Source: a virus. From it: a stretch of DNA of 64,000 bases. Position 1 is the first letter of the stretch, and the number at the start of each line of letters is the position of its first letter. Made by a program: the position numbers and the translations under genes. The stretch covers positions 1 through 64,000 of the IMG/VR virus record IMGVR_UViG_3300029319_000029. One strand, 5' to 3'. Shown here one piece after another: positions 49,618 through 63,774 of the stretch. Under the pieces are notes generated by a model, which was given only the letters and a program-made list of their open reading frames with translations, was not told where the DNA came from and searched no databases.

Positions 49618-50286
49618 ATGATAGATAAAAAAATGGAACTTACAGAATCAAAGGAAGCGCAGAGTTATATTCAAAAAAGAAGTAATGATTTTGAAATAAT
49701 AACAAATAACGATAAAATACCTTATTTATTGGCTAAAAACTATTTTACCAAAAAGGAAATGGATTTAATTTTATCTGAGTTGAGATTTCTGACTCCTAAG
49801 ATGACGTTTCAAGATGGTAAAAATCTACCAACCAAAGATTATAAAAAAAATACACAAATAGGATTGGATGATTTATATACTGATAGAACCACATCAAATA
49901 TATTATCTTTGATGAATAAAATTTATGGTGACGTTGAGTTGTTAAAAAAACTCAATGATTTACATTGGTTTTATACTACTTGGAGATATACAAACTTAGA
50001 TAACACTTTTGTAGCTTATTATGAGAATACCGATTATTATAAAGCTCATAGGGATATAGCCGTTATATCAATTATGTATTGGATATGGGAGGAGCCAAAA
50101 TCTTTTACAGGTGGTGATATCTATTTATCAGATTACGATATTGATATACCTTTGGAAAGAAATCAACTTCTTATAATTCCATCCTCAACCAATCATGCCG
50201 TTCAACCAATTAAAATGAATGATGATATAAAAAAATTATCAGGTATGGGAAGATATTGTATAGCTAGGTTTTTAAAACTCCAATAA
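49618..50286 (+). CDS. 2-oxoglutarate/Fe(II) oxygenase
   Basis: 222 aa. YYKAHRDIAVISIMYWIWEE gives the HxD iron motif (His144, Asp146). IPSSTNHAVQPI gives His193, and GRYCIARFL gives the 2OG-binding Arg212. The FTGGDIYLSDYD strand is typical of prolyl-4-hydroxylase-like phage enzymes. It hydroxylates a protein or base; the target is unknown. It has its own promoter-like motif and AAGG site, directly behind the Gly-rich adhesin. Confidence 0.88.
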   Translation: MIDKKMELTESKEAQSYIQKRSNDFEIITNNDKIPYLLAKNYFTKKEMDLILSELRFLTPKMTFQDGKNLPTKDYKKNTQIGLDDLYTDRTTSNILSLMNKIYGDVELLKKLNDLHWFYTTWRYTNLDNTFVAYYENTDYYKAHRDIAVISIMYWIWEEPKSFTGGDIYLSDYDIDIPLERNQLLIIPSSTNHAVQPIKMNDDIKKLSGMGRYCIARFLKLQ

Positions 50287-51142: not shown

Positions 51143-51763
51143 ATGGCCGAAGATTTAAGAGACAGATTAAAAAAGATTAAAGCCGCTGAAAAAAGAAAAA
51201 AAGAAAATTATGTGGTTGAAAGATTTAGTTGTGGTTGTGTCCATATTTCAGAACTAAAGCTCAACGAAAAAAAATGGAGCATGAAATACAAACGTAGTAT
51301 TGATTGTAGTAATCCAAAGGGATTTTCACAAAAAGCACATTGCGCTGGTAGAAAAAAGAGAAAAAGAGAGGACATTATGAGTAAGCATGATTCAATCAAT
51401 GAGTATATTGTTGAAAATTATTATGACTATGTAAGCTTCATAAAATTTATGAAAGAAAACTATGTTGGTAAAAGTTTACAAGAGGCTGAGTATCAGGGAA
51501 GAAAGGTTGAGTTAGGAAAGGTCAAAAGAGGTGGAGATAAAAAGTTTTTCGTTTATGTAAGAGACCCTCAGACAAAAAATATTAAAAAAGTGTCCTTTGG
51601 TGATACCACTGGTTTATCAATCAAAACAAAAGATCCAGATAGGAGACGTAATTTTAGAGCACGTCACAATTGTGATAATCCCGGCCCAAAGACTAAGGCT
51701 CGTTATTGGAGTTGTAGGATGTGGAGTGGCCCGAACGCTATAAAAAATATGTTAGGAAAGTAA
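51143..51763 (+). CDS. basic Cys-rich protein, possibly capsid-associated
   Basis: 206 aa. SIDCSNPKGFSQKAHCAGRKKRK in the first half and HNCDNPGPKTKARYWSCRMW near the end are Cys/His modules that often occur in structural-region proteins of marine phages. It shares its last base with the next ATG (TAATG). Function unknown; zinc or DNA binding is possible. Confidence 0.55.
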   Translation: MAEDLRDRLKKIKAAEKRKKENYVVERFSCGCVHISELKLNEKKWSMKYKRSIDCSNPKGFSQKAHCAGRKKRKREDIMSKHDSINEYIVENYYDYVSFIKFMKENYVGKSLQEAEYQGRKVELGKVKRGGDKKFFVYVRDPQTKNIKKVSFGDTTGLSIKTKDPDRRRNFRARHNCDNPGPKTKARYWSCRMWSGPNAIKNMLGK

Positions 51764-54700
51764 TGAAAAGATTAGTTGAATCTTTGGTCGAACCATTTAT
51801 AAATGAATCCAAAAAAAGAGTCCCAAGAAAAAAAGGACAACATCGTGGTTCAAAGTCTCATTCTGATTTATACACGGATGAAAACCCAAAAGGAACAATA
51901 AAAGGATTAAAGTTTGCGACTGTAAAGGATGCTGAAGCATCTGTGCGTAAAATTAAGTCCAGCGGTCGTTCCCACGCTCATAAGATTCAAGCCGCAGTGG
52001 CTATGGAACAGAGAGCAAGAGAAATGGGTAAGAAATCCCAAGCAGCAGTTTATCGTTCTTATATTAATAAGATGAAAAAGAAAACCAAAAAGAAAAACGA
52101 AGATATTAACATACCTGTTGAAATCGGTGATACCATTCTTACAGGTAGATTTAAAAATAAAAAGGTTGTGGTTAAATCAATTGAAAAAGATGAACACGGA
52201 ATGCCAACTATCAATGGTAAAAAAATTACTACATTTAGGGTTTTAAAAAATAAAACAAATCAGAAAAATGAGTCATCAATCACATCAAATATAAAGGGTG
52301 TTAAGGGTTATTCTCCGTTTGTTGAAGATGGACAATTTGATAATTATGTAGCACATCTGAAAAAGATATTTGAAAAAAATGGTGAAAAATTTATTCTAAA
52401 AGAGGGTGTAAACGACCCTGGTATTTTAAAGGCAGTCTTTTTGGCAGGTGGGCCAGGTAGTGGTAAGACGTATATAACGAGAGGGTTGTTTGGTATACCA
52501 AAATCGATAACACTTTCAGCTTTTGGATTAAAGGTTGTAAACTCAGATACGGAGTTAGAAAGAATGTTGAACAAATATGGATTTGGTACGGACTTAGATG
52601 CTATGCCTGATGAAATATTTAGACAATTGACCGACCCAAGCTATGAGGATTATAGTGGGTTAAGAACACGAGCAAAAGAATTGACTCAAGCTCGTAAAAA
52701 ACTCTATACTGATGGTAGATTGGGGATGATTATAGATGGTACGGGTCGTAAATTTAAGGAAATATCCAAACAGAAAAATGAGTTAGAAAAAATAGGCTAC
52801 GATACCTATATGGTTTTTGTTCATACAAAGTTAGAAATAGCTCAAAAAAGAAATATGGCAAGAGCTAGAAAATTAAGTCCTGAGTTAGTTGAAAAATCTT
52901 GGAATGATGTTCAGGCTAACAAAGGAGCTTTTCAAGGTTTGTTTGGTTCATCTAATTTTTTGTTAGTAGATAATTCTCAAACATTGGCGGAAAAAGCAGC
53001 TGAGAAAAAATTTCAAATGTTAGTTAGAAAAGGGGTTGGTAAATTTATAAAAAAACCTATAAAAAATTATCGTGGTCAGAATTGGGTTAAGAAACAAAAA
53101 TTATTAAGAAAAGAAGTTCTGCTAAAAATAAAAGAAATGATGAATTATCCAAATCTTTTAAGACCCGTAGCACAGGTGCCCGCTATTCAAAAAGATGGTG
53201 AACATAGGTATTACAATCCTGATACCACTAAGAAAAAAAAGAAAAAAAAAGAGAACACATCCGTTCCATACGGTAGTGGTTATGAAAAGATAAAAGAACA
53301 AAAACAAATCAAAAAGATTGTTGGTATTTATGGTGGCAGATTTCAACCATTTGGCCCTCATCATAAAAAAACATATGAGATGTTAAAGAAAAAAGTTGAT
53401 GATGCATATATAACAACGTCAAATATCAAACAACCCCCACGCCATCCTATGAACTTTAAAGAAAAAGTTCGTCATATGATAAAGATGGGTATTCCAAAAA
53501 ATCGTATAGTCCAAGAAAAATCACCTTATGTAGCAAAAAATGTTTTGTCAAAATACGACCCACAAACCACCGCAGTTGTCTACATATTTGGTGCCAAAGA
53601 TAGTGGACGTTTAACTAGCGGAAAATATTTTCAGGATTATAAAAAGAATAAAAACAATTTAAACGGTTATGAGGATAATGGATATATTTTAACAGCCCCT
53701 CACGTCTCAATAAACATAGCTGGTAAGGAAGTTAGTGGAACCACAATGAGACAATTGTTAGGTTCACCTGATATGGAAAAGGATAGAGAAAAATTATTCA
53801 AAAAAGCTTTTGGGTACTTTGATAAAGGTATCTATAATATGATGACTAATAAGTTTAAAAAATTGTTTGAACAATTTAAATTAACCAATGAAATCATAGA
53901 TGAGTTTTTAATTGAAATTGATGTAAATAAAATAATTAAAGAAAGCACAACAGGCGGTTCTCCTACCGATGATGGGCCTCCGACGTTTTATAGAGGATTT
54001 AATGATTATAAGAAAAATGTTACAAACTGGATTGATGATATGTACGCTGGAGCTGGTTGGAAAATACTAAATTATATTTTGGGTAAGGGTGCTTTGAATC
54101 CAGATTATGATTACACATTAGAATATAATGTTGTACCAGCCGTAGCTTATGGTAGGAAACAATCTGGTGAATATGGTACTAGGTTTGGAGTTAACAATCC
54201 AATACAATCCTATAAAAATTACATAGAGGAAACTGTTTTAAAAAACTTAGGGTTTACATTATTAAAGTGGATGGGTATCACACCTGATGGTAAGTCTTAT
54301 ACTGGTGTTGAGGTTGAGACACCTGTTTTACCAGGAGTTGGATTAGATAATGTTGGTAATACAACCACAGATAAATTAAAATTAAAAGAATCAATCAACT
54401 TACAAGAAGAATTAAGATTATTAATTGAGGGTGGTGCCTATGGTCATATGAACCATCCGTTTGATGATAAGGATTTAACGTTTGGTGATTTAAAGAAAAT
54501 AGTTGATTTAGGTCTGCAAGGAAGATTAGATTTAGAGGAAACACCTACAGAAAAAACAGACGGACAAAATCTTATGATAACCCTTAAAAAAGATAAATTA
54601 TTAGCAGCCAGAAATAAAGGACAGATTAAGGGTAAGGGCAAAAAAGCTTTAGATGTTGTTGGTATTGCTAGGAAGTTTCAAGGAAGAGGTGATATAAAGG

Positions 54701-55650
54701 ATGCTTTTGTTTTTGCTATGCAAGATTTAAAAAAGATGGTTGGTAAATTATCAGATGCACAAAAGAAAAAAATATTTGATGAGGGTGGTAATTTTGTAAA
54801 TTTAGAAATTATTTATCCCCCTACCAAAAATGTAATAGATTATGATAAAAGACTATTACAATTTCACGGTGTTACAAAATATGATGAAAATGGAAATCCA
54901 AAAGGTAATGTCACCGATGGTGGTAGAATATTGGCTGGTATGATAACCCAAGTAAATGCTAACATAGGAAAAAAGTTTAAGGTGCAAAAACCAAACTTTT
55001 TAACATTGAAAAAAAGTCAAAACTTTGGAAAAAAACGTGATATTTATTTCAATAGAATTGATAAACTTAAAAATCAATTTGCATTAAAAGATACCGATAC
55101 TCTAAATGAGTATCATCAAAGTTATTGGATGGAATTCATATTCAACGCAGCAAAACAATATAAGTACGCAATACCAAATAAGGTTTTAATGAACTTAACA
55201 AAGAGATGGGCATTCTTTGACAAATCATATAGCGTTCAAAAAATCAGAGCAGATATTGATAATCAAAAGTTTTTAGATTGGTTTTTATCTACGGATAAAC
55301 AAGACCACACCAAAATGGTAAAAGAGAATATGAGACCATTTGAAATTTTATTTTTTGAGTTGGGTGCCGAAATATTAAAAAATATAAGTAATTTTTTAGC
55401 GGCTAATCCAGATAAAGCAGTTCAAACAATCAGAAAGGATGTTGTTAAAGCGATAAATGTTGTAAGAAAGGGTAAAGATTTAAAAAAATTAAATACTCTA
55501 AAACAACAACTAAGCAAACTAAATGCGATTGGTGGTTTTAAATCAATAGTTCCATCAGAGGGATTGGTTTTTAAATACAAAGGTAAAACTTATAAATTTA
55601 CCGGCGCTTTTGCTCCAATAAATCAAATAATAGGTTTAACAACTTTTTAA
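51763..55650 (+). CDS. kinase - cytidylyltransferase - ligase-type fusion protein
   Basis: 1295 aa from ATG 51763 (an open frame to 51721 lies inside the previous gene). A Lys-rich N-terminal module (GTIKGLKFATVKDAEASVRK, SHAHKIQAAVAMEQRA) precedes a P-loop kinase with Walker A GGPGSGKT (229-236) and MIIDGTGRKFKEI. A nucleotidyltransferase of cytidylyltransferase/NMNAT type follows: YGGRFQPFGPHHKK (GRFQP at 525-529) and VSGTTMRQLL (657-666). The C-terminal domain has EKTDGQN (KTDG, 931-934), VNLEIIYP (1012-1019) and EGLVFKYKGKTYKFTG (1266-1281), which resemble motifs I, III, IV and V of RNA/DNA ligases. It may be a virion-carried RNA-repair or NAD-related enzyme. No substrate is known. Confidence 0.75.
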   Translation: MKRLVESLVEPFINESKKRVPRKKGQHRGSKSHSDLYTDENPKGTIKGLKFATVKDAEASVRKIKSSGRSHAHKIQAAVAMEQRAREMGKKSQAAVYRSYINKMKKKTKKKNEDINIPVEIGDTILTGRFKNKKVVVKSIEKDEHGMPTINGKKITTFRVLKNKTNQKNESSITSNIKGVKGYSPFVEDGQFDNYVAHLKKIFEKNGEKFILKEGVNDPGILKAVFLAGGPGSGKTYITRGLFGIPKSITLSAFGLKVVNSDTELERMLNKYGFGTDLDAMPDEIFRQLTDPSYEDYSGLRTRAKELTQARKKLYTDGRLGMIIDGTGRKFKEISKQKNELEKIGYDTYMVFVHTKLEIAQKRNMARARKLSPELVEKSWNDVQANKGAFQGLFGSSNFLLVDNSQTLAEKAAEKKFQMLVRKGVGKFIKKPIKNYRGQNWVKKQKLLRKEVLLKIKEMMNYPNLLRPVAQVPAIQKDGEHRYYNPDTTKKKKKKKENTSVPYGSGYEKIKEQKQIKKIVGIYGGRFQPFGPHHKKTYEMLKKKVDDAYITTSNIKQPPRHPMNFKEKVRHMIKMGIPKNRIVQEKSPYVAKNVLSKYDPQTTAVVYIFGAKDSGRLTSGKYFQDYKKNKNNLNGYEDNGYILTAPHVSINIAGKEVSGTTMRQLLGSPDMEKDREKLFKKAFGYFDKGIYNMMTNKFKKLFEQFKLTNEIIDEFLIEIDVNKIIKESTTGGSPTDDGPPTFYRGFNDYKKNVTNWIDDMYAGAGWKILNYILGKGALNPDYDYTLEYNVVPAVAYGRKQSGEYGTRFGVNNPIQSYKNYIEETVLKNLGFTLLKWMGITPDGKSYTGVEVETPVLPGVGLDNVGNTTTDKLKLKESINLQEELRLLIEGGAYGHMNHPFDDKDLTFGDLKKIVDLGLQGRLDLEETPTEKTDGQNLMITLKKDKLLAARNKGQIKGKGKKALDVVGIARKFQGRGDIKDAFVFAMQDLKKMVGKLSDAQKKKIFDEGGNFVNLEIIYPPTKNVIDYDKRLLQFHGVTKYDENGNPKGNVTDGGRILAGMITQVNANIGKKFKVQKPNFLTLKKSQNFGKKRDIYFNRIDKLKNQFALKDTDTLNEYHQSYWMEFIFNAAKQYKYAIPNKVLMNLTKRWAFFDKSYSVQKIRADIDNQKFLDWFLSTDKQDHTKMVKENMRPFEILFFELGAEILKNISNFLAANPDKAVQTIRKDVVKAINVVRKGKDLKKLNTLKQQLSKLNAIGGFKSIVPSEGLVFKYKGKTYKFTGAFAPINQIIGLTTF

Positions 55651-56885: not shown

Positions 56886-57268
56886 TGAGAAATTTATTTA
56901 AGATATTCTGTATTTTTTTTATGTGTTTTTGTTATGCGCAACAAAAACCTTTGTTAACCAATGAACAAATAGTAGAGATTGCTAATAAGATGAAAGAGAT
57001 GGAATCTGAAATAAATAATCAAAAACTATCAATTGGTTATTTGGAGGATTTGGTAAAGGAATATGAGGAGCAAACAGCTATCGATTCTTCTTTATTAAGT
57101 CAGAAAGATTTACAAATATCTGTGTTGAAAGAAAGAGAAGATAATTACGAACAACAAATTAAATTAGTGAAACCAAAATGGTATGATAACAAATATCTTT
57201 GGTATACTTATGGAATCGCTAGCGCAATAATTCCTATTTATTTAGCATCTCAAATACCTGGACTATAA
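56885..57268 (+). CDS. exported coiled-coil protein with C-terminal anchor
   Basis: 127 aa. A signal peptide (MRNLFKIFCIFFMCFCYA) ends in YAQ-Q, a cleavage context common in Bacteroidetes. A coiled coil (VEIANKMKEMESEINNQKLS and onward) and a C-terminal span (YLWYTYGIASAIIPIYLAS) follow. With 56240 it could form a spanin-like pair, although the C-terminal anchor is atypical. It is coupled to the terminase gene. Confidence 0.55.
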   Translation: MRNLFKIFCIFFMCFCYAQQKPLLTNEQIVEIANKMKEMESEINNQKLSIGYLEDLVKEYEEQTAIDSSLLSQKDLQISVLKEREDNYEQQIKLVKPKWYDNKYLWYTYGIASAIIPIYLASQIPGL

Positions 57269-58848
57269 TGGAAACAAATGATAAACAACTAAAAGATGTA
57301 ATCAAAAAAGAATACATTAAGTGTGCGCAAGACCCGGTATATTTTTTAAAAAAATATGGGATGATACAACATCCTATGAAAGGTAAAGTTCCTTTTAATT
57401 TATATGACTTTCAAGAAAAAACTTTATCGGAGTTTTCTGTAAATAGATACAATATTATTTTAAAAGCTAGACAATTAGGTTTATCCACTTTAACAGCAGG
57501 TTACTCTTTGTGGATGATGACATTTAAACCTGATAAGAATATATTAGTGATTGCAACAAAACAAGATACGGCTAAAAATTTAGTTACCAAAGTAAGAGTG
57601 ATGCACGCTAATCTACCAAGTTGGTTAAAACAACCATGCGTTGAAGATAACAAATTGAGTTTAAGATACAAAAATGGTTCACAAATAAAAGCCATATCTA
57701 GTAAAGAGGAGGCTGGTAGGTCAGAAGCGTTATCACTTCTGATTATTGATGAGGCAGCTTTTATCGATAAGATAGATGGTATTTGGGCTTCGGCACAACA
57801 AACACTATCAACTGGTGGACAATGTATAGCCCTTTCAACACCTAATGGTGTGGGTAATTGGTTCCACAGAACTTGGATGGATGCAGAGGATGGATTAAAC
57901 GAATTTAATTTTATAAAATTACATTGGACATTACATCCTGAAAGAGATAAGGATTGGAGAGATAGACAAGATAGTCTCTTAGGCCCGTCTATGGCGGCAC
58001 AAGAATGTGATTGTAACTTTATTACTTCAGGTAGAACAGTAATAGATGGTGTTATTTTGGAGGAGTTCAGAGAAAAAAACATAGAGGAACCATTGGAAAA
58101 ACGTGGTATCGATGGTAATTTATGGATTTGGGAGCCCGCTAATTATACAAAAGATTATTTAATATGTGCTGACGTTAGTAGAGGTGATGGCACAGACTAC
58201 TCCGCTTTTCACATAATTGAACTTGAGGAAGTAAAACAGGTCGGTGAATACAAAGGAAAAATATCCACACGAGATTTTGGAAATCTATTAGTCAATGTAG
58301 CGGCTGAGTTTAATAATGCTTTGTTAGTTGTTGAAAATAATAACATAGGTTGGGCTGCTCTACAACAATGTATAGACAGAGGATACGATAATTTATTTTA
58401 CACATCCAAAGATTTAAAATATGTGGATACACAACATCAGATTTCAAACAAATATAGACAAGCAGATAAAAACTTAGTTCCTGGCTTTACAATGTCAATG
58501 AAAACCAGACCATTGGTAATTGCAAAGTTGGAGGAATATTTCAGAGAAAAATCATTAACCATTAAATCACAAAGGTTAATTGATGAATTATTTGTTTTTA
58601 TTTACAATGGTCAAAAGACAGAGGCAATGACTGGCTATAATGATGATTTAGTTATGAGTTTAGGCATTGGCCTGTGGATAAGAGATACGGCTTTGAGATT
58701 AAAAGCAGAGGGTATCGCATTACAAAAGAAAACCCTAAGTAGTATAACATCAAATCAAGGAGTTTATTTAGCAGATGATAAAGAAGACGACGCTTGGCAG
58801 TGGGATGTTAAGGGACAAAAAGAATCATTAAATTGGTTAATTAATTAA
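57268..58848 (+). CDS. gp17: terminase large subunit gp17
   Basis: 526 aa. ATPase domain: the deviant Walker A ARQLGLST (67-74) and Walker B LLIIDEAAF (Asp161-Glu162). Nuclease domain: ICADVSRGDGTDYSAF with Asp302, LLVVENNNIGWAAL and YNDDLVMSLG with Asp459/Asp460. It packages DNA into proheads and makes the cuts. T4 gp17 is 610 aa, so this is a compact version. It shares its first base with the preceding stop and is followed after ten bases by the portal gene. Confidence 0.93.
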   Translation: METNDKQLKDVIKKEYIKCAQDPVYFLKKYGMIQHPMKGKVPFNLYDFQEKTLSEFSVNRYNIILKARQLGLSTLTAGYSLWMMTFKPDKNILVIATKQDTAKNLVTKVRVMHANLPSWLKQPCVEDNKLSLRYKNGSQIKAISSKEEAGRSEALSLLIIDEAAFIDKIDGIWASAQQTLSTGGQCIALSTPNGVGNWFHRTWMDAEDGLNEFNFIKLHWTLHPERDKDWRDRQDSLLGPSMAAQECDCNFITSGRTVIDGVILEEFREKNIEEPLEKRGIDGNLWIWEPANYTKDYLICADVSRGDGTDYSAFHIIELEEVKQVGEYKGKISTRDFGNLLVNVAAEFNNALLVVENNNIGWAALQQCIDRGYDNLFYTSKDLKYVDTQHQISNKYRQADKNLVPGFTMSMKTRPLVIAKLEEYFREKSLTIKSQRLIDELFVFIYNGQKTEAMTGYNDDLVMSLGIGLWIRDTALRLKAEGIALQKKTLSSITSNQGVYLADDKEDDAWQWDVKGQKESLNWLIN

Positions 58849-58858
58849 GAGGTAAAAA

Positions 58859-60691
58859 ATGGCTGATAAAAATCTATTCAGTAGACTTAGAAGATTATTT
58901 TCCACAAACGTAATTGTAAGAAATGTTGGTGGTAAAAAACTCAAAATAGCTGATACAGAAAAAGTACAGGCAGTTGCACAACGTCAGCTTGTAGATAGAT
59001 ATAATAGATTATATAATAATATGTCAGGTATGAGTGGTTACAATCAATCACTTTATCAAAAAACTATGAGGCTTGGATTATTCAGAGATTATGAAGCTAT
59101 GGATAGTGACCCAATAATCGCATCTGCTTTGGATATTTATGCTGATGAATCTACTCTTAAAGGTGAGTATGGGAAGGTTGTAAAAATAACAACAGATAAT
59201 AGTAATATACACGACATACTTCATAACTTATATTATGATATTTTAAACATTGAATTCAATTTATATCCGTGGGTGAGAAATTTAGTTAAGTATGGTGATT
59301 TTTTCTTAAAGCTAGACATTAGTGAAAAATTTGGTATAACTAATGTTGAACCTATATCAGCGTATGATATTACAAGAATTGAGGGGGATGACCCAACCAA
59401 TCCTCATTATGTAAAATATGTTTTAGAAACAGGAGATAAACGTCATTCTTTACCTGGTGGTAAGGAACAATCTGAATTTGAAAATTATGAAGTAGCTCAT
59501 TTTAGAATGTTAGCTGATTCAAACTTTTTACCCTATGGTAGGTCACAATTAGAGGGTGGTAGAAAGATATGGAAACAATTATCTTTGATGGAAGATGCTA
59601 TGTTAATCCATAGGATAATGAGAGCTCCTGAGAAGAGAGTCTTTAAAATCGATATTGGAAATATTCCTCCAGCAGAAGTTGACCAATATATGCAAAAAAT
59701 TGTAAACAAAATGAAAAAAGCACCTGTATTAGATGATAACGGGCAATATAATTTAAAATATAATATTCAAAACCTAACAGAAGACTTTTTTATGCCTGTA
59801 AGAGGTGGAGATAGCGGTACTCAAATAGAGTCTTTGGGTGGATTGGATTTTAACGCCACAGATGATATTGAATATCTAAGAAAAAAATTAATGGCAGCCT
59901 TAAGAATACCATCCGCTTTTATAGGTTATGAGGAGCAAGTTGAGGGTAAAGCTACTTTAGCAGCGCAAGATGTTAGGTTTGCTAGAACAATCGAAAGAAT
60001 CCAAAGAATTATTGTTAGTGAGTTAACAAAAATTGGTATCGTTCATTTATATGCGCAAGGTTACACCGACCAAGATTTAGTTAATTTTGATTTAGAATTA
60101 ACAAACCCATCAACCGTTTATGAACAAGAAAAATTAGAATTGTTAGGAAATAAAATTAGTTTGGCTAGAGATATGATTGGTGATGGTTTATTATCAAGCG
60201 AATGGGTTTATAAAAATATATTTAATTTTACAGACGAACAGCAAAAAGAAGAGCAGGATGGTATTATAGAAGATTTTAAGGAAAAATTCAGACGTTCTCA
60301 AATTGAAAATGAAGGTAATGACCCATTGGAGAGTGGACAGGCGCAAGGAACACCATCGGATATGGCTATGGGTAGAACTGGACATGAACTTAATGATAAA
60401 GGTGGCGCACCAGAGGGTGGATTCAAAGGAGCTGGTAGACCGAAAGAAATTTCACATTATGGAAAAGATGGAAGTGCTAGGGGTAGAGACCCAATAGGAA
60501 AACATGACCTCAAAAAAGCTGGTTCACATGCTCCAAAGTATGGAACTGAGTATAGAGGTGGTTTAGCTTTAGCACATTTTGATAAGTTAAAGGGTGTTTT
60601 TAACAAAAAAGATAGGACTTTGATTAACGAAACAACCGAAGTTGAAAAGGAATACGAATCCGAACTATCTTCCTCTTTATCTGATACATAA
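58859..60691 (+). CDS. gp20: portal protein gp20
   Basis: 610 aa, near T4 gp20 (524 aa) plus a longer C-terminus. TMRLGLFRDYEAMDSDPIIA, SALDIYADEST, EVAHFRMLADSNFLPYGRS, RIMRAPEKRVFKIDIGN and ALRIPSAFIGYEEQVEGKAT are the core portal blocks. The C-terminal 100 residues are Gly-rich and charged. The dodecamer is the DNA channel and head-assembly starter. AAGAGG precedes the ATG. Confidence 0.93.
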   Translation: MADKNLFSRLRRLFSTNVIVRNVGGKKLKIADTEKVQAVAQRQLVDRYNRLYNNMSGMSGYNQSLYQKTMRLGLFRDYEAMDSDPIIASALDIYADESTLKGEYGKVVKITTDNSNIHDILHNLYYDILNIEFNLYPWVRNLVKYGDFFLKLDISEKFGITNVEPISAYDITRIEGDDPTNPHYVKYVLETGDKRHSLPGGKEQSEFENYEVAHFRMLADSNFLPYGRSQLEGGRKIWKQLSLMEDAMLIHRIMRAPEKRVFKIDIGNIPPAEVDQYMQKIVNKMKKAPVLDDNGQYNLKYNIQNLTEDFFMPVRGGDSGTQIESLGGLDFNATDDIEYLRKKLMAALRIPSAFIGYEEQVEGKATLAAQDVRFARTIERIQRIIVSELTKIGIVHLYAQGYTDQDLVNFDLELTNPSTVYEQEKLELLGNKISLARDMIGDGLLSSEWVYKNIFNFTDEQQKEEQDGIIEDFKEKFRRSQIENEGNDPLESGQAQGTPSDMAMGRTGHELNDKGGAPEGGFKGAGRPKEISHYGKDGSARGRDPIGKHDLKKAGSHAPKYGTEYRGGLALAHFDKLKGVFNKKDRTLINETTEVEKEYESELSSSLSDT

Positions 60692-61640: not shown

Positions 61641-62268
61641 ATTAAAAGAAATAATTAGAGAGTTAATTAATCAAGCGCTCGAAGAGGCTTCGGTAACAGG
61701 TAATATAGATGGTGGTGAAGGCCCCCCAAAAACTCCTTACGCATTTCAATCAAAACCAAAATCCAAAAAAGATAAAGATAAAGAAAAGGCTATAGCCACA
61801 GCAGGAGGTTATATGAAAGTCAAAGAAGCTAAATTTGCAGTTAAATTTATGTTAGGTAATGATGCAAGCGACACCGCAACTGTTGTTGTTGACGCAGGTT
61901 CGCCAGGTGAAGCGAAAATGTTGATATCAAAAAATTTAAGAAAAGGTGTTAAGGCTATTGTAAGTGTTAATAGAGTTCAACCAGCTAAAGCCAAAGTAGT
62001 TACACAAAAATTAGAATCTATGAAAGAGGGAAGATATCACGATTGGAGAAATGACGAATCGATGACTCCAAAACAAAAGATTGGTAAATCTGTAAGAGAA
62101 GTTAGAGACGCCCTACAAGAATTAGATAAAGTAATCAAAATGAATTTAAAGCTAAAAACAGAATTAAATGTTGATTCAAAAAATTATTGGAAAAATACAC
62201 ATAAAGCTTTAGGAAAAATTTCAGAAAGATTAGTAAAATTAGCTACAAAAGTAGGGAGTCTAAAATAA
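61621..62268 (+). CDS. probable prohead core/internal protein
   Basis: 215 aa from ATG 61621 (a TTG at 61615 is in frame). An N-terminal helix, then ASVTGNIDGGEGPPKTPYAF and a Lys-rich stretch, a small strand domain (TATVVVDAGSPGEAKMLISK) and long C-terminal helices. The GNIDGGEGPPKTP element recurs in head-region proteins of marine T4-like phages as I remember them. It precedes the protease, so it may be a substrate. Confidence 0.55.
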   Translation: MSLRIDKLKEIIRELINQALEEASVTGNIDGGEGPPKTPYAFQSKPKSKKDKDKEKAIATAGGYMKVKEAKFAVKFMLGNDASDTATVVVDAGSPGEAKMLISKNLRKGVKAIVSVNRVQPAKAKVVTQKLESMKEGRYHDWRNDESMTPKQKIGKSVREVRDALQELDKVIKMNLKLKTELNVDSKNYWKNTHKALGKISERLVKLATKVGSLK

Positions 62269-62879
62269 TGGATAAAAACTTATTGGTTGAATATATACCA
62301 TTTGACGTATCAAAAAAACAAATATCAGAATCTATAAAAGAAAACAACGGAAAACTCATCGTTAAGGGTGTATTGCAAAGAGCCGAAGCCAAAAATCAGA
62401 ATGGTAGAGTATATCCGAAAGAAATCCTTATGAGAGAGGCTAAAAATTATAATAATAATTTTATAAAGGAAAATAGAGCTTTGGGAGAGCTTGACCATCC
62501 AGATAGTTCGGTTGTGAATTTATCAAATGCATCTCACAATATCATAGATATGTATTGGAAAAACAACGACTTGATGGGAACAGTTGAGGTATTAGGGACT
62601 CCGAGCGGTAACATATTAAAAGAATTATTTAAGAGTGGGATAAAATTAGGTATTTCAAGCAGAGGCATAGGTTCTGTTGAAGCTATAGAGGAGGGTGATG
62701 CGCAACAGGTACAAAGTGACTTTGAATTAATAGCTTTTGATTTTGTTTCCAACCCATCTACACATGGAGCTTTTATGTATCCAATGAATGAATCGGTTGA
62801 TAAGAATAGACCAGCAGCTGAGTGTGGAGTTTGGTGTAAAACTGAAAAAATTATAAATGATATCATAAGTGGCATATAA
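62268..62879 (+). CDS. gp21: prohead core protease gp21
   Basis: 203 aa, the size of T4 gp21. LIVKGVLQRAEAKNQNGRVY, ALGELDHPDSS with catalytic His77, KLGISSRGIGSV with the Ser130/131 nucleophile, and FDFVSNPSTHGAFM are the S77-family assembly-protease marks. It cleaves core and capsid proteins during head maturation. It shares one base with the gene upstream (TAATG) and overlaps the next (TAATG). Confidence 0.93.
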   Translation: MDKNLLVEYIPFDVSKKQISESIKENNGKLIVKGVLQRAEAKNQNGRVYPKEILMREAKNYNNNFIKENRALGELDHPDSSVVNLSNASHNIIDMYWKNNDLMGTVEVLGTPSGNILKELFKSGIKLGISSRGIGSVEAIEEGDAQQVQSDFELIAFDFVSNPSTHGAFMYPMNESVDKNRPAAECGVWCKTEKIINDIISGI

Positions 62880-63181
62880 TGGCTGACAATAGACAAATGC
62901 TTAATAAATGGAAAGACTTCAGATTAAGTAGATATCAACAATTGGATGAAGAAAAAATTAAAATGGGCTTTGCCGGATTTGATAATTATTTTAAATTCAT
63001 CGAAAGAGATATTAAAAAAGTCGGTGATAGCATAAAAAGATTGATAAAAGATTTGGCTAAAGATACAAAGGATGGAGAAGCCGATTATAAAAAACAAGTG
63101 TTAGAATTACAGAATTTTTACAAAAAATATGTGATTGAGATGGATGTAAAATTTAAACAATTTAAAAGGAAAAACACATGA
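62879..63181 (+). CDS. small helical head-region protein
   Basis: 100 aa, charged and helical (FRLSRYQQLDEEKIKMGFAG, a coiled-coil end KKYVIEMDVKFKQFKRK). Directly after the protease and overlapping the next gene, so it is probably a core component. No family recognised. Confidence 0.55.
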   Translation: MADNRQMLNKWKDFRLSRYQQLDEEKIKMGFAGFDNYFKFIERDIKKVGDSIKRLIKDLAKDTKDGEADYKKQVLELQNFYKKYVIEMDVKFKQFKRKNT

Positions 63182-63774
63182 TTAAGTTAATACCTTTATT
63201 GGAACAGGAGCAAGAAAAAGAAAAACCATCTCATTTTGGTGGTGGTAAAAACATTACGGTTAAAGGGTATGAAACTCAACACTTTGATATTTGTCAATCT
63301 GCCGTTATGCTATTTGAAAAACTAGATAAAGTTGATAATGATTTAGCCGATGGATATATTAAAAAAGCCGCTAAAAATTTAGACCATTTATTTGAGATGG
63401 AAAAGCAGGTGGTCAATGGAGAGGAATTAGACCACGACCCTATAGAACACTCTGTCGAACTTTGTAATATCGCTTCATTTCAATTAGGAGTTGTCGGTGG
63501 AATTATTGGTGATAACTTTGAAAGAGATACTAATTTTATTAAAATGCATGTTATGGTAATTTTTAACAGAAAAGATGATATAAAAATTAAAGATAAGGTC
63601 GAGGAAAAATTAAATATATTTTTAGAGAAGAATGTACCAACTAATCCATCCAAATGGAGTTATTATAAATCTCAAGCGAAAAAGAAGTTTGATGTTTATC
63701 CATCAGCATACGCAAACGCTTGGGCTGCTAAACAATATAAAGCAGCTGGTGGTAGTTGGAGAAAAGAAAAATGA
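63178..63774 (+). CDS. head-region protein with KKFDVYPSAYANAW module
   Basis: 198 aa. The N-terminal three quarters are helical and acidic. The C-terminus NPSKWSYYKSQAKKKFDVYP and SAYANAWAAKQYKAAGG is a module seen at the ends of many phage structural-region proteins; its function is unknown. Probably a prohead core or capsid-associated protein. Confidence 0.6.
   Translation: MIKLIPLLEQEQEKEKPSHFGGGKNITVKGYETQHFDICQSAVMLFEKLDKVDNDLADGYIKKAAKNLDHLFEMEKQVVNGEELDHDPIEHSVELCNIASFQLGVVGGIIGDNFERDTNFIKMHVMVIFNRKDDIKIKDKVEEKLNIFLEKNVPTNPSKWSYYKSQAKKKFDVYPSAYANAWAAKQYKAAGGSWRKEK

Follow-up and report, generated by a model that had tools for sequence, protein, structure and literature searches.

A shuffled multi-domain protein of a T4-related marine phage, predicted to be a virion-packaged polyprotein with RNA-repair and NMNAT-like modules

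In bacteriophage T4, the first ten residues of the internal protein IPIII form a capsid-targeting sequence (CTS), and the prohead protease gp21 cleaves after L/I-x-E (PMC9026906). Polyvalent proteins of phages and conjugative elements are multi-domain and shuffled, and entry with DNA followed by processing has been proposed for them in the passages of the source used here (Iyer et al., 2017; PMC5512222). A review of jumbo phages presents kinase, ligase and CCA-adding enzyme as partners in the repair of host-cleaved tRNA, and also discusses NAD+ replenishment (PMC7824862). NMNAT-like proteins have been detected by mass spectrometry in virions of the cyanophages S-SCSM1, S-CREM2 and S-SZBM1. The stretch analysed here, called the window, comprises 64,000 nucleotides (positions 1 to 64,000 of IMG/VR virus record IMGVR_UViG_3300029319_000029, most of this viral record of 66,980 bases), and one open reading frame (ORF) in it encodes a modular fusion protein of 1295 amino acids (aa). 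This protein is probably, though by no means surely, a polyprotein that a T4-related marine phage packages in its virion and that, as read from its sequence, would be cut by the prohead protease and injected for RNA repair and NAD+ supply.

The limits of the modules (Table 1) were set with hidden Markov models (HMMs) built from the window protein. All motifs listed for this ORF in an earlier sequence-only reading lie where they had been placed (GGPGSGKT at residues 229-236, GRFQPFGPHH at 525-534, VSGTTMR at 657-663, KTDG at 931-934, NLEI at 1013-1016 and EGLVFK at 1266-1271), and the kinase (KIN) and GRFQP (CYT) domains recognized there are matched by Pfam AAA_33 (3.6e-7), Zeta_toxin (6.7e-8) and CTP_transf_like (2.6e-4), all better than their curated cut-offs. 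The motifs are not fortuitous. Beyond these two domains and the C-terminal ligase-like domain (LIG), which made up the earlier three-part description, the protein has a leader, a module N, a KOW-like module and a module MID.

Leaders of 10-17 residues ending in hydrophobic-x-Glu are found throughout the family (for example MNKLTEWLTKPFLEE↓, MNRLVKQLITPFITE↓ and MSLKKLVEEITKPVIDE↓, the arrow marking the predicted cut), and 49 of 56 distinct leaders fit the simple pattern [LIVF]xE with E at position 10-20. The leader precedes whichever module comes first, N, KOW, KIN, CYT, MID or LIG, and in split versions each piece can start with its own (L096, L126, L009). T4 IPII and IPIII start with MKTYQEFIAE↓A. 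Two attributes of CTS-type internal head proteins, a short N-terminal L/I-x-E peptide and an S77 protease in the same genome, are present here. The NMNAT-like proteins of S-SCSM1 and S-CREM2 start with MKSFLQFLKE↓A and MKNFSSFLTE↓A, and four of their relatives have starts close to the T4 sequence (MRSFLTFLTE↓A, MKSYKEFLSE↓A, MKKFSAFLNE↓A and MKKFSDFLSE↓A). The T4-CTS-like leader and the precedent of the cyanophage virion proteomes lend support to the earlier guess that the window protein is packaged in the virion, which stays a prediction.

Leaders near the T4 CTS also occur in the cyanophage cytidylyltransferase family (L185-L188, L177, L178; 562 phage records match S-SCSM1 gp91), and such a leader may predict virion enzymes across that family.

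The borders between modules bear a related motif. A Glu stands in fixed register before KOW (17/17, at position -1), N (11/13) and MID (24/34), as it does before KIN and LIG (Table 1), and P3 is I or L in all 54 Glu-bearing LIG contexts. For most modules the border Glu is kept whatever module precedes, usually with I, L or V two residues upstream, and it also precedes inserted PolyA_pol, Zn_protease and ROS/MUCR modules. In non-redundant linkers [IL]xE was seen 100 times vs. 35 expected from shuffles (z 12.4), and inside modules 111 times vs. 159 expected; the controls [IL]xD and [IL]xQ were at expectation in linkers. An [ILV]xE lies within 40 residues at 152 of 166 junctions, compared with 22% of same-length windows inside modules. 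Motif density relative to expectation is 1.17 in other proteins of this phage, 1.42 in T4 proteins, 2.8 in the gp21 substrate gp22 and 3.15 in the linkers of this protein. Of two structure models, the one from KOW to MID had a predicted template modelling score (pTM) of 0.39, and therefore only domain limits and disorder were taken from it, while its fold matches were used just to back KIN and CYT. From KIN onward, the predicted sites fall in, or at the edge of, segments disordered in the two models. The strongest points for putative cut sites are that the site is kept when its neighbour changes, and that the motif is avoided inside modules.

These borders also bear on the quite improbable explanation that small leader-bearing head genes were fused by recombination into a mosaic of cassettes, the Glu motifs being relics and the fusion serving head assembly. 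In its favour, this phage carries, next to the protease gene, several small genes that start with a leader, and it has a second modular ORF, whose borders read INE↓ and VNE↓. Relics, however, would not keep a motif enriched in linkers and depleted in modules, and the catalytic residues of the kinase, the NMNAT-like domain and the ligase are kept across diverse members.

The modules are shuffled within the family. LIG is always last: in all of 129 distinct proteins it stops 12 or fewer residues short of the C-terminus. The other modules occur in 13 arrangements among 55 complete proteins, including N-KOW-KIN-CYT-MID-LIG (window), KOW-KIN-N-CYT-MID-LIG (L018) and KIN-KOW-CYT-LIG (L112). The order of the window protein recurs in homologues L007, L012, L015, L016 and L024. 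CYT with LIG is the commonest core, the kinase is absent in many members and CYT in some, and modules may be reordered, split into separate genes or swapped. In the SAR11 phage HTVC008M of Pelagibacter (L003, 106050-109011), KOW, KIN and CTP_transf_like with DUF5824 are carried by neighbouring separate genes that do not lie with the head genes (the CTP_transf_like match being just under the Pfam cut-off), and the free kinase starts with MIPFILKE↓G. A poly(A) polymerase/CCA-adding head domain with an RNA-binding domain is fused in L171 (829-6555), L151 (1709-6115) and L138 (3-3476); the insert of L151 has an HD domain, and the CCA-adding modules are preceded by VDE, INE or IKE borders. Other inserts are a Zn_protease in L009 and a ROS/MUCR domain in L114.

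With modules shuffled, split and swapped, and with motif-rich flexible linkers between them, a polyprotein fits better than the single enzyme of fixed three-part order that the sequence-only reading had pictured. It is unlikely that the protein is one uncut RNA-repair enzyme of several domains, produced late and working in the cell as a single chain with linkers that are plain tethers. Kinase and ligase are joined in one chain in known RNA-repair enzymes, and the common CYT and LIG core and the CCA-adding domains of relatives would suit such an enzyme; against it count the 13 arrangements, the many members without kinase, the parts present as separate genes and the protease-type motif in the linkers, needless for plain tethers.

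The same kinase module was seen in Agrobacterium phage Atu_ph07 (L088:7302-9638), after EVTE↓G in a 778-aa protein which starts with MKWNDLNE↓A and has unassigned domains on both sides of the kinase.

At least 595 LIG relatives were found in IMG/VR and only 3 records in the phage reference collection. The search of 84,980 genomes gave only two contigs of metagenome-assembled genomes; these are probably phage, and hence no cellular LIG homologue was found in that set. Scanning viral sequences with the jumbo-phage LIG as sole seed gave no matches; with the alignment as query, relatives were found.

Of 124 testable loci, 122 have the fusion gene shortly upstream of terminase; the portal gene follows downstream in 94 of 97 and the S77 protease gene in 46 of 48. 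The fusion gene is therefore a conserved member of the head operon and not a stray fusion. The location among head genes noted earlier is borne out in the window, where terminase gp17, portal gp20 and the S77 prohead protease are encoded downstream, the last 7 kb from the fusion ORF. The phage is T4-related by its portal protein, the nearest being Microcystis phage Mel-JY01 and the Flavobacterium phages 'immuto'. Mel-JY01, an isolate, encodes a CYT-LIG protein (WWT39297.1).

The C-terminal third had been read as a ligase-type nucleotidyltransferase. Nucleotidyltransferase motifs I, III, IV and V (KxDG, NLE, EGhVF and YKhTG) are invariant or nearly so; in 42 diverse LIG homologues the invariant residues are K, D and G of KxDG, A-R-N-K, E of NLE, EG and K-x-T-G. 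The AlphaFold2 model of LIG (mean predicted local distance difference test score 88.5, pTM 0.84) has only RNA and DNA ligases among its best 24 matches to PDB folds, including T4 Rnl2, T4 Rnl1 and those of Palaeococcus and Naegleria, but at E ≥ 0.02 and template modelling score (TM) ≤ 0.37; in BFVD, RNA ligases come after close relatives. A long helical insertion between the NLE (III) and EGLVFK (IV) motifs is, in our opinion, the reason for these low scores. The RNA_ligase family PF09414 has no match in the window protein, where no Pfam family matches the LIG third; 26 of the 42 homologues touch it weakly (best E 0.0029; the next Pfam family is touched by 3), none above the curated cut-off. 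Alignment of LIG with an Rnl2 set by hhalign gave E 0.0045 at a low probability of 7.8 (unrelated control 0.32), and paired motif I and the next strand (EKTDGQNL...KLLAARNKG with EKIHGTNF...KVTCAKRTG). Direct PDB sequence searches with the whole protein and the LIG profile gave chance matches only (stretches of ribosomal protein eS6 and others), T4 Rnl1, Rnl2, DNA ligase and Alt found no relatives as phmmer queries, and the NCBIfam scan gave nothing useful. The ligase reading is supported with reservations, given the E values, the low TM and the faint PF09414 signal, and from sequence and model LIG may be called a divergent domain of Rnl2-like RNA-ligase type, short of a proven member of that family. 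A capping role, the other activity envisaged earlier, was dropped because neither guanylyltransferase specificity nor a phosphatase partner was seen.

LIG residues 894-915 (window about 54442-54507), GHMNHPFDDKDLTFGDLKKIVD, are highly conserved and precede motif I, with a His and an Asp invariant or nearly so. By eye this segment recalls the Ia region of NAD+-dependent ligases, and it might bind the nucleotide donor.

KIN has a P-loop kinase fold and Walker A. The nearest proteins by profile are L-seryl-tRNA(Sec) kinase (PSTK) and Clostridium thermocellum Pnkp, and the fold matches are zeta toxin, Pnkp (TMt 0.66-0.69 for that of C. thermocellum) and adenylate kinases; PSTK, Pnkp, zeta and adenylate kinases match at a similar level. 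CYT has HIGH-type and SGTxxR motifs, its nearest PDB entry by profile is the archaeal NMNAT 1f9a (E 4.2e-7), and its fold matches are NadM/NMNAT; sequence and model predict an NMNAT-like domain, for which NMN would be a putative substrate. A kinase of the Pnkp/PSTK/zeta class and an NMNAT-like domain are thus both backed by Pfam, profile and fold matches. MID has no PDB match.

The identity of CYT raises the distinctly unlikely case of NAD+ counter-defence, where the NMNAT-like module would be the main enzyme and restore NAD+ drained by host NADases, with kinase and LIG as side cargo, or, in a variant sharing the same low standing, LIG would take its adenylate from NAD+ and CYT would recycle the NMN. 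The closeness of CYT to archaeal NMNAT and the NMNAT with P-loop kinase arrangement described in jumbo phages fit this; it is opposed by the likeness of KIN to Pnkp, PSTK and zeta kinases rather than specifically to a riboside kinase, by the lack of a phosphoribosyltransferase in the proteins scanned and by members without CYT. A NadR reading of kinase and NMNAT, tried for the pair, is retained as a rival only, the kinase being not specifically of NadR type.

For the packaged polyprotein, a course of events can be proposed in which packaging and cleavage are predicted from sequence and activities from family membership. The leader would direct the precursor into the prohead, like the CTS of T4 internal proteins, and the S77 protease would cleave after L/I/V-x-E in the flexible linkers, stripping the leader and freeing N, KOW-like, KIN, CYT, MID and LIG as separate proteins within the head. 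Once freed, the modules would be carried into the cell along with the DNA and be active there before expression of phage genes begins. Their likeliest task would be RNA repair, since kinase, ligase and the CCA-adding domains of relatives fit it: the kinase would restore 5' phosphates, LIG would rejoin tRNA or other RNA after cleavage by host anticodon nucleases, and the CCA-adding enzyme domains of relatives would join in. The NMNAT-like module would restore NAD+. As a general strategy, a double-stranded DNA phage polyprotein from which a head-maturation protease frees enzymes in the capsid, so that an RNA-repair and nucleotide toolkit is at hand at time zero and shuffling exchanges its cargo, may be suggested tentatively and with some doubt.

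Several points weigh against this proposal. To our knowledge, there is no virion proteome or cleavage product for any LIG-bearing member. The ligase-fold scores of LIG are marginal, no 3'-phosphatase domain was found beside the kinase in the 1295-aa protein, and RNA repair leaves the NMNAT-like module and MID unexplained. In 11 of 65 LIG contexts another residue (Met or Cys in the cases seen) takes the place of the Glu, the border between N and KOW reads KNE and not L/I-x-E, and the CYT border Glu is without fixed register (best column 50%). The motif [IL]xxE is also raised in linkers, more weakly (z 5.9), and the linker z-scores overstate independence because the sequences are related. Gene fusion could also have left the conserved Glu as a relic that need not be a cut site at present. 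The leader test on cyanophage proteins was small (3/17 virion proteins vs. 1/78 others), and the cyanophage authors caution that the NMNAT may be lysate carry-over (PMC10665884).

Table 1. Features of the fusion ORF and of the downstream head-gene region (window coordinates; ↓, predicted cut).
Feature	Position	Strand	Remarks
Whole ORF, modular fusion protein, 1295 aa	51763..55650	+	Single open frame
Leader MKRLVESLVEPFINE↓S, predicted capsid-targeting sequence with L/I-x-E cut site, aa 1-15	51763..51807	+	
Module N, aa 20-113, basic; end KKNE↓D	51820..52101	+	Also occurs in separate cyanophage proteins
KOW-like module, aa 114-165	52102..52257	+	Weak Pfam KOW, E 0.076; family HMM; beta fold in model
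Predicted cut site ILKE↓G before KIN, aa 211-214	52393..52404	+	E in 20/20 distinct contexts, P3 I/V/L/M in all
KIN, P-loop kinase of AAA_33/Pnkp/PSTK/zeta class, aa 215-450	52405..53112	+	Walker A 52447-52470
Predicted cut site KIKE↓Q before CYT, aa 509-512	53287..53298	+	End of disordered linker aa 460-513
CYT, HIGH-superfamily NMNAT-like nucleotidyltransferase, aa 520-700	53320..53862	+	GRFQPFGPHH 53335-53364, VSGTTMR 53731-53751; PF01467
Predicted cut site IIKE↓S before MID, aa 724-727	53932..53943	+	[ILVM]xE in 96% of distinct homologues; low-confidence model segment
MID, aa 735-870	53965..54372	+	Family HMM
Second predicted site LKE↓S before LIG	54382-54390	+	
Predicted cut site LLIE↓GG before LIG, aa 886-889	54418..54429	+	E in 54/65 distinct contexts; disordered in model
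LIG, Rnl2-like ATP-grasp-type RNA ligase domain (predicted), aa 890-1295	54430..55647	+	
LIG motif I KTDG	54553-54564	+	
LIG motif III-like NLE	54799-54807	+	
LIG motif IV EGLVFK	55558-55575	+	
LIG motif V-like YKFTG	55591-55605	+	
Terminase large subunit, gp17-like	57268..58848	+	PF03237 3.1e-12
Portal protein, gp20-like	58859..60691	+	PF07230 6.6e-74
Prohead protease, T4 gp21 family (S77), proposed processing enzyme	62268..62879	+	PF03420 4.4e-30; T4 gp21 phmmer 7.2e-24
Leader-bearing head-region gene, start MIKLIPLLE↓Q	63178..63774	+	

Four small genes after the prohead protease (window 63178 and 63771; L176:5148 and 5441) share a start of the MIKL...LxE↓ type (MIKLIPLLE↓, MIKLADFFKDTLNE↓, MIKLKNILTE↓ and MIKLKDLLSE↓) and likely encode further packaged proteins. 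The second modular ORF (371 aa; L176:4028-5143, record bases 64028-65143, just past the window) has a DUF3008 module first, the start MPAVSQQQQKFMGIV and the borders ESINE↓D, KKNE↓D and ESVNE↓A/V, and looks like another internal-protein polyprotein; its start resembles that of the cyanophage virion protein S-SCSM1 gp93, MPAVSKAQQRFMGMV. In Flavobacterium phage immuto, an unannotated 841-aa protein (immuto26A_192; L189:2386-4911) is encoded upstream of terminase at almost the position of the fusion gene, with a leader MKKLIRIVE↓A and ESLNE↓D borders and with none of the searched modules. A probable 2-oxoglutarate-Fe(II) oxygenase gene is present at window 49618-50286 (PF13640 4.5e-5, just under the cut-off). 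The promoter scan stayed at chance level.

If the proposal is true, tailed phages would have a polyprotein strategy relying on the prohead protease, and RNA repair enzymes would be present in the virion before phage gene expression, able to answer anticodon-nuclease defences at once. A leader and [ILV]xE-bounded modules beside an S77 protease would then predict virion cargo in any T4-related genome. Although the family is very common in ocean viromes, Pfam lacks a family for LIG and for MID.

The idea that multi-domain proteins are delivered with DNA is already known from polyvalent proteins, which likewise have several unrelated, shuffled enzyme domains per chain; in the passages of that paper searched, processing is proposed to be by embedded zincin metallopeptidases, in contrast to the separate T4-type prohead protease and CTS-type leader here, and the combination of RNA ligase, NMNAT and kinase was not found (PMC5512222). 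Embedded peptidases are common, not required, in polyvalent proteins; Pfam gave none in the window protein, and among the relatives scanned only the Zn_protease of L009. The passages and papers searched, among which subscription journals were few and absence is therefore weak evidence, gave no description of a T4-type leader with prohead-protease-type borders and RNA ligase/NMNAT/kinase cargo, and a literature search for the domain combination found none. Like T4 Pnkp/Rnl1, Rnl2 and bacterial Pnkp, the window protein has a P-loop polynucleotide-kinase-type domain and a KxDG ligase-type domain with the superfamily motifs; it differs by lacking a phosphatase, by the large helical insertion in the ligase, by the NMNAT-like module between the two and by its late head-gene location. 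HIGH-type nucleotidyltransferases are shared with S-SCSM1 gp91, S-CREM2 gp154 and S-SZBM1_140, the first two with T4-CTS-like leaders, whereas these cyanophage virion proteins are encoded by separate genes without ligase, and the CYT family HMM misses the first two at E 0.01. The N-terminal L/I-x-E peptide and the S77 protease in the genome are as for T4 IPI-III and Alt, which are injected with the DNA (PMC9026906, PMC5694885). The T4 internal proteins, however, are single functional units, whereas here five or six modules follow one leader, with predicted sites at most of the borders.

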